Source of the DNA: Flavobacteriales bacterium
GTDB taxonomy: Bacteria; Bacteroidota; Bacteroidia; NS11-12g; UBA955
Direction: 5' to 3'
Assembly: GCA_947487055.1 (NCBI GenBank)
Contig: CANKVN010000013.1
Span: forward strand, 1 to 37,429
DNA length: 37,429 bases
Program-made: the position numbers and the translations under genes
The notes under the pieces: model-generated
What the model was told of the DNA's origin: nothing
The model's database searches: none
Seen by the model: only the letters and a program-made list of their open reading frames with translations
In this document: in pieces, positions 4,854 through 8,962 of the stretch
How the letters are laid out: each line of letters starts with the position of its first letter
Position numbering within the stretch: position 1 is the stretch's first letter

Positions 4854-4861
4854 TACATTTG
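4854..4861 (+). promoter_or_regulatory. Bacteroidota -7 element for the cobalamin riboswitch/btuB operon
   Basis: TACATTTG matches TAnnTTTG exactly and places the transcription start at about 4866, right at the 5' edge of the riboswitch aptamer. No good -33 TTTG is seen at the usual spacing. Confidence 0.5.
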
Positions 4862-4865
4862 CCCT

Positions 4866-5045
4866 GCGTCTGGTTCTCGAAATTCGTTATTGAATCTAGG
4901 GATGAAAAGGGAACTCCGGTGAAATACCGGGACTGTACCCGCAGCTGTAACTCCAGCCTGTAAAGGCATTCGGTAATCTTAGCCACTGTTGTTGATGTCA
5001 ATGGGAAGGCGCCGGTGAAATGGAGAAGTCAGAAGACCTGCCAGG
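4866..5045 (+). promoter_or_regulatory. Cobalamin (adenosylcobalamin-type) riboswitch
   Basis: Conserved cobalamin-aptamer elements appear in the right order. GGGAACTCCGGTGAAATACC spans about 4910-4930 (the A-G-G-G-A-A/G-G-T-G core), CCCGCAGCTGTAA is at 4938-4950, GCCACTG at 4982-4988, GGGAAGGCGCC at ~5002-5012, and the 3' B12 box variant AGTCAGAAGACCTGCC at 5027-5042. The aptamer binds cobalamin and represses downstream uptake genes when the vitamin is plentiful. The expression platform probably lies between 5046 and the receptor start. That stretch holds short pairings (for example CGCTTT with AAAGCG near 5060-5083 and GGAG with CTCC near 5094-5104), so control may be translational. The aptamer call is firm; the mechanism is inference. 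Confidence 0.93.
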
Positions 5046-5142
5046 AGCAACACAACATTTGCCGCTTTCGGGAAAAAAAAGCGCAATGAATCTGGAGGGT
5101 CTCCCGGCTCATGCTGTTTTTCCGCCTGTGGCATGCAAAACC

Positions 5143-6975
5143 ATGACAGGTTTAACCATTTGCATATCGCTATTTTCAGCCGCGTCGGATTCTTGTCCGG
5201 CCACCGATACTGCATTTGTACTGGGCCGAAGGTGGGAGCAAGCAGCTGTGGGTAAGCATTCACTTGTTTTTCAAAATAAAGGTTTTCAGCGCAATCTGGG
5301 TGGCGAACTGGCTGCTGCAGGGATCTGCATTCGCCAATATGGCATTTCCGGACTTTCAGGAATCAGCCGCCGTGGTGCCGATCCTTCCCAGATTCAGGTT
5401 TTGTGGAATGGTATTGCGTTAAACAGCCCGATGCTCGGAATGGCCGATCTAACCCTGTTGACGGGAGCAAATACAGGTGAAATAACCCTTACCGAAGGTG
5501 GCAGCAGCTCCTTCTATGGTAGCGGAAGCGTTGGTGGAACACTGGCAATTAACCAGTTGCCCCCGGAAAATGCTGGATTCAAAGCCTCATTGTCAGCTCA
5601 ACGAGGCAGTTATGGCCTTCGCAGTTTTTCCGGCAATGCAGCCCTGGCTTCAGGTAGGGCATATTTCAACTGCAGGGCAGCTTTATCACAGGCCGAAAAC
5701 AACTTTGTGTATGCGCTCAATCCGGGGGAGAAACCCCGCTTTACCATGAGTAATGCTTCCACATCGTCTTTTGTTTCAGCCATCAGCGCAGGTTTTAACC
5801 ACAGGAAATGGGAAACGGTTTTGAATGCGGAATGGCAGACCAACCACCGCGCACTTGGAACACCGGCAGGCGGTGGCGCTGGCCTGGGAACGCAGTCAGA
5901 TGCAAATACAAGGCTGGTTTTGTCTACGGTATATAATGCTAAATCGTGGAAATGGGTTCAGCGTGCAGGGTTTATAAGCGATATTATTGCCTTTCAGCAT
6001 CTTGCATATCCAAGTCCTGATACCAGCATTTCAAACAATCGTCAATTGCAGCAGGAATGGCATTTTCCCTGGTTCAAAGCGCAGTTTATTATTGGAAATG
6101 ATCTTAGCTGGCAAAGCGGTAAAACAAAAAATTACCGTCAGGATTATGAAAGGATTTTTCCGGCGCAGTTTATAAACGTTACCAAACGGATCTCCCGTCA
6201 CTTGCTTGCAGCAGGTTTTCGCTGGGAATGGCGCGAAAAAATTCCGGTTGCATCCTTGTCTTCCGAACATGGCCTGGGCGGTTCCTGGACGCTAAAATCA
6301 AGCTTTAGCAACAGTTTCAGACGCCCAACTTTCAACGATTTGTATTGGGCCGAAGGCGGAAACAGCGCTCTTAAAGCAGAGCAAGGCGGCAATGCGGAAT
6401 TTGGCATTCATGCCAAAAAACAGTTCGCCAAAACCCAATGGAAAGCTGCGTTTACAGGGTGGTTGCGGTATCTGATAAATCCCATTATATGGCTTCCGCA
6501 AAATAACCTGTGGCGTGCTTCCAATATGGAGCGTGGCGATTACAAAGGGGTTCAGGTATTTGCATCCGTTTCTAAAACATTGGGTCAAACAAACTGGGAG
6601 TTATATACTTCCGCCGAATATACACATGCTGTTATGCAAGACGCTGCCAGGCAGTATCAGGGTATTTTTATTCCCGCAATTACCGGCGCTTGCCGATTGA
6701 GCATGCGTTTCAAAGGATGGAGTGCTCAGGCAGCTGTTAATGGCCAAAGTGCCCGTTTTATGAGCACCGATAACCAATATTCCTTGCCGGGATATGCGTT
6801 GGTTTCCATGCATGCCGGTAAGGAATTGTTTTTCAATAAATCAGGTTTGGATATTCAATTTGGAGGTGATAACCTGTTGAATGCCGTTTACCAGGTAATG
6901 CCCGGAAGGCCAATGCCGTTGAGGAACATCTGGGTTAAAATTAATATTCAAATATCAAAAAAAAATAAAATATGA
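5143..6975 (+). CDS. btuB: BtuB-like TonB-dependent cobalamin receptor
   Basis: An outer-membrane TonB-dependent receptor of about 610 residues. The plug domain carries ISGLSGISRRGADPSQIQVLWNGI and GGSSSFYGSGSVGGTL, which match plug motifs; the barrel ends with GGDNLLNAVYQVMPGRPMP, typical of BtuB-like and siderophore receptors. There is no N-terminal CarboxypepD_reg-like domain, unlike SusC proteins. The cobalamin riboswitch immediately upstream assigns the substrate. The frame is open from 5020, but an ATG there lies inside the aptamer. The ATG at 5143 gives a short hydrophobic leader (MTGLTICISLFSAASDS); an ATG at 5086 is the alternative. The gene overlaps the next by ATGA (4 bp), so the three uptake genes are translationally coupled. 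Cobalamin is bound outside and moved to the periplasm using TonB energy. Confidence 0.88.
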   Translation: MTGLTICISLFSAASDSCPATDTAFVLGRRWEQAAVGKHSLVFQNKGFQRNLGGELAAAGICIRQYGISGLSGISRRGADPSQIQVLWNGIALNSPMLGMADLTLLTGANTGEITLTEGGSSSFYGSGSVGGTLAINQLPPENAGFKASLSAQRGSYGLRSFSGNAALASGRAYFNCRAALSQAENNFVYALNPGEKPRFTMSNASTSSFVSAISAGFNHRKWETVLNAEWQTNHRALGTPAGGGAGLGTQSDANTRLVLSTVYNAKSWKWVQRAGFISDIIAFQHLAYPSPDTSISNNRQLQQEWHFPWFKAQFIIGNDLSWQSGKTKNYRQDYERIFPAQFINVTKRISRHLLAAGFRWEWREKIPVASLSSEHGLGGSWTLKSSFSNSFRRPTFNDLYWAEGGNSALKAEQGGNAEFGIHAKKQFAKTQWKAAFTGWLRYLINPIIWLPQNNLWRASNMERGDYKGVQVFASVSKTLGQTNWELYTSAEYTHAVMQDAARQYQGIFIPAITGACRLSMRFKGWSAQAAVNGQSARFMSTDNQYSLPGYALVSMHAGKELFFNKSGLDIQFGGDNLLNAVYQVMPGRPMPLRNIWVKINIQISKKNKI

Positions 6976-7958
6976 AAAAAGTTAGAAAATTCGCTGTCAT
7001 AATGCTGTTCGGTAGCATACTTTCCTCTAATGCACAGGTTACGGAAGGTTTTGAAAATGCCATGTTCGATACCGTAAAATTACTGAATGGAAGTGATGGT
7101 GGCCGATTTCATTACTTAAACACCGGTGAAATGACCTTTCCGGTAAGCTGGGATACTGCTTACAAATACTGGGCAAGTGGCTGGGCAATGTCTAAGATAA
7201 TCAATAACAAGGTAGAACCATCCAACTATGCAGAACATTTGTATAGCGCAGCACCTGGCTATGGTGTGGAAAATGGCAATAAGGGTAAAACTTTTATGGT
7301 TGGGCAAAATGGAAGTTTTTTTAATTTACAAAGAAAAGCCCCGGGCGATTTCCCACTGAAAGGTTTTTACGTGAGTAATTCGACCTATGCCTATAACAGC
7401 ATGAAGTTAGGCGATTTTGTTGGCAAAAAGTTTGGAGGTAAAACGGGTAAAGATGAAGATTCTTTTGTACTCATAATTCGATGTTACAAAAAGAGCAGGC
7501 AGATAGACAGTCAGCGTGTGATACTGGCAGATTTTAGGTTTACAGATTCTGCAAAAGACTATATTCTTAATCAGTGGAAGTTTATAACCATTAAAGATGC
7601 CTTTACCGATAGTTTGGCTTTTGAACTGGTTAGCTCTGATGTAGGTCAGTTTGGCATGAATACCCCGGCTTTCTTTGTGCTTGATGGTGTGGAGTTTTTG
7701 GGCTTCAATTCGGTTAGGAATGCGCATGATTTATTCAGTTTATTTCCGGTTCCTGCTAACGATGTATTAAATGTTAAATCAATATCTCCGTTGGTTTCTG
7801 TAAAGGTTTTGGATTATGCCGGTCAGGTTAAATATGCTGCGAGTCTCAATGGATTTACAGGATTTATTCCGACAAATCAGCTACCTCAGGGCTATTATAT
7901 AGTTCAAGTCAACTCCCTTGCAGGCAAATACTCAAGTACAATACAGATAACAAGATAA
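6972..7958 (+). CDS. DUF4465-type protein with T9SS sorting domain, cobalamin-uptake operon
   Basis: A 328-residue protein with a signal peptide (MKKVRKFAVIMLFGSILSSNAQ). Its body resembles DUF4465 proteins, with a WDTAYKYWASGWAMSK-like segment and a late FFVLDGVEFLGFNS strand. Residues ~255-328 form a type A type-IX-secretion C-terminal domain: LFSLFPVPANDVLNVKS, then VKVLDYAGQVKYA, then LPQGYYIVQV and a final ITR. The protein should therefore cross the outer membrane by T9SS and be surface-attached or released. From memory, DUF4465 genes recur beside B12 receptors in Bacteroidota, where surface cobamide-binding proteins (BtuG and BtuH types) help the receptor; a similar capture role here is inference. 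It overlaps btuB by 4 bp and the next gene by 1 bp (TAATG). Confidence 0.8.
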   Translation: MKKVRKFAVIMLFGSILSSNAQVTEGFENAMFDTVKLLNGSDGGRFHYLNTGEMTFPVSWDTAYKYWASGWAMSKIINNKVEPSNYAEHLYSAAPGYGVENGNKGKTFMVGQNGSFFNLQRKAPGDFPLKGFYVSNSTYAYNSMKLGDFVGKKFGGKTGKDEDSFVLIIRCYKKSRQIDSQRVILADFRFTDSAKDYILNQWKFITIKDAFTDSLAFELVSSDVGQFGMNTPAFFVLDGVEFLGFNSVRNAHDLFSLFPVPANDVLNVKSISPLVSVKVLDYAGQVKYAASLNGFTGFIPTNQLPQGYYIVQVNSLAGKYSSTIQITR

Positions 7959-8962
7959 TGCGTCTGTTATCGTTTCTTTTTCTGATTTTGGTTTTTCTTC
8001 CCGGTTGCCGGAAAGAAAAACCACAATCGGTCATATTCAATGCAGGATCTGGCGCGGTGCTGGTTCTCAATGAAGGAAACTTCATGTGGTCCAATTCAGG
8101 TGTGGATTTGTACGATATGGGCTCGGGTAAATTGCTTTCAGATCTATATCAGTCTGTTAATGGAAAGCCTCTCGGCGATGTTTTGCAAAGCGGCAGCATT
8201 ATCAATGGTGACGTTTGGCTGGTGGTAAACAACTCAGGGAAAATTGTGGTGCTGGATAGCCATACACTGAAGGAGAAATATACCATTTCCGGCTTGCGAT
8301 CGCCACGCTATGTTGCCCAGGCGGCAAACCGCATCTGGATTACAGATTTATATTCCGGTAAAGTACAGATTCGGGATGCTACCGGCAAAACACTCCTTCA
8401 TGAAATACCGGTGGGCGTGTGGTCCGAACATTTGGTTAATGACGGAAAGGGAATGTGTGTGGCCGGCTACGACGGATGGATAAGGCGTTACGATACCACG
8501 CAGTTTCAGTTGATGGACAGTTTGTATTTGGGAAAGGGATTGAGATGGATGGTCAAGGATCAGCAGCAATCGCTGTGGGCGCTGGCATCCAACAGCGATA
8601 GTGGTTACTGCCGGCTCCTAAAAGTAGATGCCGCACGAACCGGTAAAAAGCGGTTTGATTTTCCGCTGACTACCTACGCGTCATCACTGGCCATTAGTAA
8701 AAACAAGGACACGGTTTTTTACCTGGCAGATGGCGTTTATGCTATGAATGTGAATGCAGTGTCCTTGCCTCAAACGCCCATTTTAAAGCAGGCAAACAGC
8801 AATTTTTATGCATTGGCTTGCCACCCAAAAACAGGGGTGCTTTTTGTGAGCGATGCCAAAGACTATGTATCCAGAGGGATGGTGCAAATGCTCCACGGAA
8901 ATGGAACCCCGGTTGGGTCCTTCAGTGCCGGAATTATTCCCTCCGGATTTATCTTTTATTAA
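7958..8962 (+). CDS. BtuG-like beta-propeller surface lipoprotein (YncE/DUF5074-like)
   Basis: A 334-residue lipoprotein: MRLLSFLFLILVFLPGC has a lipobox LPGC with Cys17 as the lipidated residue. The body is built of repeated beta-propeller blades, with phrases such as GAVLVLNEGNFMWSNSGVDLYD, KIVVLDSHTLKEKYTISGL and IWITDLYSGKVQIRDATG, as in YncE/YVTN and DUF5074 proteins. BtuG of gut Bacteroides is such a seven-bladed propeller; it binds cobalamin very tightly and caps BtuB. The position here, third gene behind a cobalamin riboswitch, supports a BtuG role. It has no T9SS domain, so it would reach the surface as a lipoprotein, unlike its neighbour. A weak hairpin follows the stop codon. Confidence 0.82.
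   Translation: MRLLSFLFLILVFLPGCRKEKPQSVIFNAGSGAVLVLNEGNFMWSNSGVDLYDMGSGKLLSDLYQSVNGKPLGDVLQSGSIINGDVWLVVNNSGKIVVLDSHTLKEKYTISGLRSPRYVAQAANRIWITDLYSGKVQIRDATGKTLLHEIPVGVWSEHLVNDGKGMCVAGYDGWIRRYDTTQFQLMDSLYLGKGLRWMVKDQQQSLWALASNSDSGYCRLLKVDAARTGKKRFDFPLTTYASSLAISKNKDTVFYLADGVYAMNVNAVSLPQTPILKQANSNFYALACHPKTGVLFVSDAKDYVSRGMVQMLHGNGTPVGSFSAGIIPSGFIFY

Follow-up and report, generated by a model that had tools for sequence, protein, structure and literature searches.

The locus at positions 4,854–8,962 of the analysed DNA is very probably a standard Bacteroidota B12-scavenging operon, in which a BtuJ-like protein delivered by the T9SS picks up extracellular B12 and passes it to a BtuB–BtuG system. 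The DNA, hereafter the window, is the 37,429-nucleotide stretch covering positions 1–37,429 of the forward strand of contig CANKVN010000013.1 from a Flavobacteriales bacterium (GCA_947487055.1), and all features given below lie on its + strand. This reading is preferred because a riboswitch and the fitting domains are present, a single structural model contains both a BtuJ fold and a T9SS C-terminal domain (CTD) fold, eight members of the DUF4465 family bind B12 in vitro, the features recur among related loci (71/81 and 38/81), and the host carries T9SS genes. Three points stand against it: the replacement of the HI-loop tyrosine by phenylalanine, a frameshift in SprA, and a receptor that scores far below the BtuB cut-off. 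Gene content, gene order, domains, predicted folds, the PorU, PorV and SprA genes and the conservation of the arrangement were all computed here; from these we infer that the DUF4465 protein binds B12, is secreted and hands B12 over, and that it is either retained at the surface or released.

The operon begins with a cobalamin riboswitch aptamer at 4854–5059 that matches the full-length RF00174 model (1–189) with 98.2 bits (gathering score 31.5), is kept in three close relatives, and is the sole cobalamin riboswitch detected across the host's own genome. Three genes follow, encoding in turn a BtuB-like receptor, a DUF4465 protein whose C-terminus is a sorting domain of T9SS type A, and a propeller lipoprotein resembling BtuG. 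Read from the sequence, the first two genes overlap by 4 bp (ATGA, 6972–6975) and the second and third by 1 bp (TAATG around 7958); these four elements and both overlaps, as described in an earlier note on this DNA, were confirmed by RF00174, Pfam and NCBIfam profiles, phmmer and the sequence itself. Between the aptamer and btuB (5060–5142), a short hairpin-like stretch of the CGCTTTCGGGAAAAAAAGCG type is conserved in four relatives and is a possible expression platform. Folding of 5000–5150 was no better than that of shuffled sequences (z 0.42), and scans for sigma-70 promoters and terminators gave signals no greater than in shuffles. We make no claim of terminator or ribosome-site control, despite the conservation after the aptamer.

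The receptor (5143–6975) has the barrel and plug of a TonB-dependent protein, with PF00593 (50 bits) and PF07715 (32 bits) both above cut-off. Its top NCBIfam model is the vitamin B12 receptor TIGR01779 (E 4e-21, residues 78–621), but its 75 bits fall far short of the equivalog cut-off of 599.7, and for this reason it is named only BtuB-like. The reading frame offers alternative starts at 5020, which is the first in-frame ATG, and at 5086. The start at 5020 falls within the riboswitch and is unconserved, and was rejected; ATG 5143 is favoured because an ATGAC start followed by a signal-peptide-like stretch is kept in three close relatives.

At the other end of the operon, the BtuG-like beta-propeller lipoprotein (7958–8962) is homologous over its full length to BtuG structures (phmmer E 7e-40 to 8bmx, residues 2–332 of 334) and matches PF16819 with 40 bits. 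Its lipobox FLPGC is followed by RKEKP, which places K, E and K at positions +3, +4 and +5 of CRKEK. This is a partial match to the Capnocytophaga surface-lipoprotein export signal C-X-K-(D/E)2 (PMC5080379), in which the residues at +3 and +4 fit and the K at +5 does not. Among lipobox-bearing BtuG-like relatives, 51/83 have K at +3 and 61/83 have D or E at +4.

The protein encoded between these two (6972–7958, 328 aa) is assembled from three parts. A Sec-type signal peptide (MKKVRKFAVIMLFGSILSSNA, residues 1–21, 6972–7034) ends in SNA-Q and contains no lipobox cysteine by pattern search; Q22 is almost invariant among relatives. The DUF4465 domain (residues ~22–246, 7035–7709) scores 103.1 bits against PF14717 (cut-off 25), and in an AlphaFold2 model with a mean pLDDT of 87 it adopts an augmented jelly-roll that matches BtuJ1 9qpm (Z 25.2, 205 residues, rmsd 2.1) and D5EK51 9hmu (Z 24.3), whereas other folds reach a Z of about 9 or less. 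A profile built from its relatives picks up 9hmu, 9qpm, 9fct, 4jqr, 4e9k and 9i2l. The third part, residues 253–327 (7728–7952), had been read in the earlier note as a T9SS domain, subject to a T9SS profile search; it is recovered by PF18962 at 30.5 bits (cut-off 27) and by TIGR04183 "T9SS type A" at 24.9 bits (cut-off 23). Because these scores only slightly exceed the two curated cut-offs, the region was probed further: it is conserved in relatives, and its predicted fold matches the CTDs of mirolase (8qb1, Z 10.7), RemA (8gl6, Z 10.6) and NucA (8glk, Z 10.4). A putative capture protein with a T9SS sorting domain and without a lipobox does therefore sit beside a BtuG-like lipoprotein in a B12-uptake operon, as had been supposed. 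The counterpart then suggested, BtuH, is incorrect; the literature (PMC12751083, PMC13398666) and the Z of about 25 to BtuJ1 identify the family as BtuJ. BtuH structures were absent among the fold matches listed, an absence that in itself proves nothing. The DUF4465 protein is BtuJ-like and is predicted to bind B12.

Two entries used to classify this family need a gloss: IPR026444 we take to be the T9SS sorting domain, equivalent to PF18962/TIGR04183, and IPR013424 is presumably the PEP-CTERM signal. Both are termed C-terminal extracellular targeting motifs in PMC12751083. Section 8 of that 2025 paper tallies 824 DUF4465 proteins, with IPR026444 in 229, IPR013424 in 88, lipoprotein signals in 275 and periplasmic signals in 170; as given there, these signals never co-occur in one sequence, and the family is proposed to be chiefly extracellular. 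The earlier statement that no study of this variant was known is accordingly out of date. DUF4465 genes are also frequently co-located with TonB receptors and PF16819 propellers (PMC13398666). The eight proteins that bind B12 in vitro are BtuJ1, BtuJ2 and six divergent members (PMC12751083, PMC13398666). One tested B12 binder, "Fluta" (F2I9N3, from Fluviicola taffensis), may belong to the T9SS type. A literature search for T9SS together with B12-binding cargo returned no paper testing export and nothing past the PMC12751083 tally, so the T9SS form is known already, if only as counts, and apparently no cell-based test of it has been made.

Among 295 genomes surveyed from the same class, DUF4465 occurs in 81, and the loci of 81 DUF4465 proteins were read, the window included. 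The sorting domain is present in 71/81 proteins by Pfam and in the same number by NCBIfam, and a cobalamin riboswitch (RF00174) precedes the DUF4465 gene on its own strand in 71/81 loci, which bears out the suspected association of the family with B12 riboswitches. The order riboswitch–BtuB–DUF4465–BtuG, found in 38/81 loci (some of the remainder being truncated by contig ends), is the commonest sampled, and the notion that mixing a T9SS-exported protein with a lipoprotein is unusual does not hold. Since this is the usual arrangement among relatives and the export route was already counted in the 2025 survey, we regard the window locus as ordinary. In a separate scan, loci with DUF4465 and the sorting domain came from Flavobacteriales, Chitinophagales, Saprospiraceae, Cytophagales and Bacteroidales records. 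Environmental metagenome-assembled genomes supply the closest of these, which from their isolate names are taken to be lake bacteria.

The survey also contained proteins of other layouts. Nine loci (L035, L036, L038, L039, L040, L042, L090, L091 and L100) encode proteins with two tandem DUF4465 domains followed by one T9SS sorting domain, a composition that suggests two B12 sites per secreted molecule. Long additional N- or C-terminal regions occur in the DUF4465 proteins of L089, L096, L103 and L104.

A route for B12 can be proposed from these parts. At low cellular B12 the riboswitch should permit expression, and the BtuB-like receptor and BtuG-like lipoprotein would together make up the uptake core of the outer membrane. 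After crossing the inner membrane by Sec, the DUF4465 protein would be exported through SprA by its C-terminal domain, shuttled by PorV and probably trimmed by PorU, and would then bind B12 outside the cell and pass it to BtuG–BtuB. The host's own genome encodes one FecCD permease and a MetH activation domain, and profile searches of it gave no match to CbiC, which suggests, short of proof, that de novo B12 synthesis is absent; taken together these features would fit a B12 scavenger, again without proving it. The MetH activation domain lies in a 656-aa frame (G000:C8:40120–40938), compared with 1230 aa in G270, and a genome of the same genus (G163) has the B12 operon and no MetH activation-domain match.

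Where the mature protein would end up is a separate question within this scheme, as T9SS cargo can be either anchored through A-LPS or released (PMC10202324). Release in soluble form, which would make it a freely diffusing B12 binder and a public good akin to a cobalophore, is possible if somewhat unlikely. It would suit the missing lipobox, the release of some T9SS cargo following PorU cleavage (PMC10202324), and the precedent of B. thetaiotaomicron BtuJ, which, on vesicles, already works at a distance from the cell (PMC12751083). Against it, anchoring by PorU via A-LPS is the common fate of type A cargo in P. gingivalis (PMC10202324), the host's own genome has PorU and PorV, and a freely diffusing binder would presumably lose B12 in dilute water unless hand-over were very efficient.

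A broader version of this idea, which we consider unlikely, is that T9SS-exported BtuJ proteins of non-gut Bacteroidota could be released, diffusible B12 carriers (protein cobalophores), the lipid anchor of gut Bacteroides BtuJ being the version used where the T9SS is missing. SprA was found in 68/70 genomes searched, nearly all of which have DUF4465. The only two SprA-less genomes of the sample, both from one genus, belong to the small number that encode a lipobox form of DUF4465 protein. Another genome (G251) has SprA, yet also has the lipobox form, so the coincidence of SprA absence with lipobox DUF4465 appears as a pattern of few cases and not as a strict rule. A tree of DUF4465 domains labelled by anchor requires a minimum of two switches between the lipid and T9SS states, and four by parsimony. 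We claim no direction for these changes, since the tree is weak in its deep branches and includes several long lipoprotein rows.

Returning to the preferred reading, one difficulty lies in the HI loop. The tyrosine of this loop (BtuJ1 Tyr245) contacts B12 and is described as universal or 97% retained (PMC12751083, PMC13398666). Profile alignment to 9fct sets MNTPAFF in the window protein against MNTPSYF in BtuJ1, so that the typical, though not profile-defining, NTPxY motif reads NTPAF and Phe234 (7671–7673) occupies the tyrosine position; the aromatic ring is retained and the hydrogen bond donor is lost. This substitution weakens the case for B12 binding. When 90 sampled DUF4465 domains, that of the window among them, are aligned by HMM, the column contains F in 44, Y in 44, S in 1 and Q in 1, and all four lipobox domains have Tyr. 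As 44/90 of these profile-defined domains carry Phe, the residue does not exclude membership of the family. It could be argued that the protein has lost tight B12 binding, and now binds B12 weakly or prefers another corrinoid, since Phe cannot donate the hydrogen bond of a residue described as so widely kept. We consider this improbable: Phe is found in nearly half of the sampled domains and most sampled loci are B12-riboswitch operons, the ring is preserved, N230, T231, Y139 and Y141 are retained, and many B12 contacts are made by the main chain (PMC12751083).

Another difficulty concerns the secretion machinery. PorU (1043 bits) and PorV (425 bits) are intact in the host's own genome, which also has 77 sorting-domain matches; SprA is present with 1972 + 247 bits, split by one frameshift in the draft assembly into two overlapping frames (L114, G000:C1:14500–25500, around locus 2642–2754). 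In a genome of the same genus, the SprA frames are open on either side of a contig break and the frameshift is absent from the corresponding place, which makes an assembly error likely. That the T9SS tail is a dead remnant in a host whose T9SS was broken through SprA, as the two frames might be taken to mean, is very improbable given the 77 retained sorting domains, the intact PorU and PorV and the same-genus genome without the frameshift, and given also how often draft assemblies contain single-base errors.

Competition for B12 helps to shape microbial communities, and studies of its capture at the outer membrane have mostly used gut Bacteroides and their lipoproteins. Across the sampled class, the BtuJ-like protein is usually a putative T9SS cargo encoded in a B12-riboswitch operon, and the survey makes surface-bound versus released B12 capture a testable question. 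The claim of a "universal" B12-contacting tyrosine needs correction, as about half of the sampled domains differ.

The closest known systems are BtuJ1 and BtuJ2 of Bacteroides thetaiotaomicron (PDB 9FCT, 9I2L, 9QPM), which the window protein resembles in fold (Z 25.2 and 21.5) and in family profile, and which are likewise encoded in a B12-riboswitch operon with BtuB and BtuG. In contrast to BtuJ1 and BtuJ2, which are lipoproteins on vesicles, the window protein lacks the lipobox of the gut Bacteroides form, has a T9SS sorting domain, and carries Phe in place of Tyr245. The T9SS-type DUF4465 proteins of PMC12751083 (229/824) have the same pair of domains and no known difference from the window protein; section 8 presents them in a tally without location tests. 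The BtuB–BtuG complexes of gut Bacteroides (PMC10404256; 8BMX and others) also pair a TonB-dependent receptor with a propeller lipoprotein in a riboswitch-led locus; the window differs from them in its divergent receptor, which is under the equivalog cut-off, in the lack of BtuH from the operon, and in the BtuJ-like gene placed between btuB and btuG. BtuH, like BtuJ, is encoded in Bacteroides B12 loci and binds B12 at the cell surface, but it is reported to form a class separate from BtuJ/DUF4465 (PMC8941943, PMC12751083).
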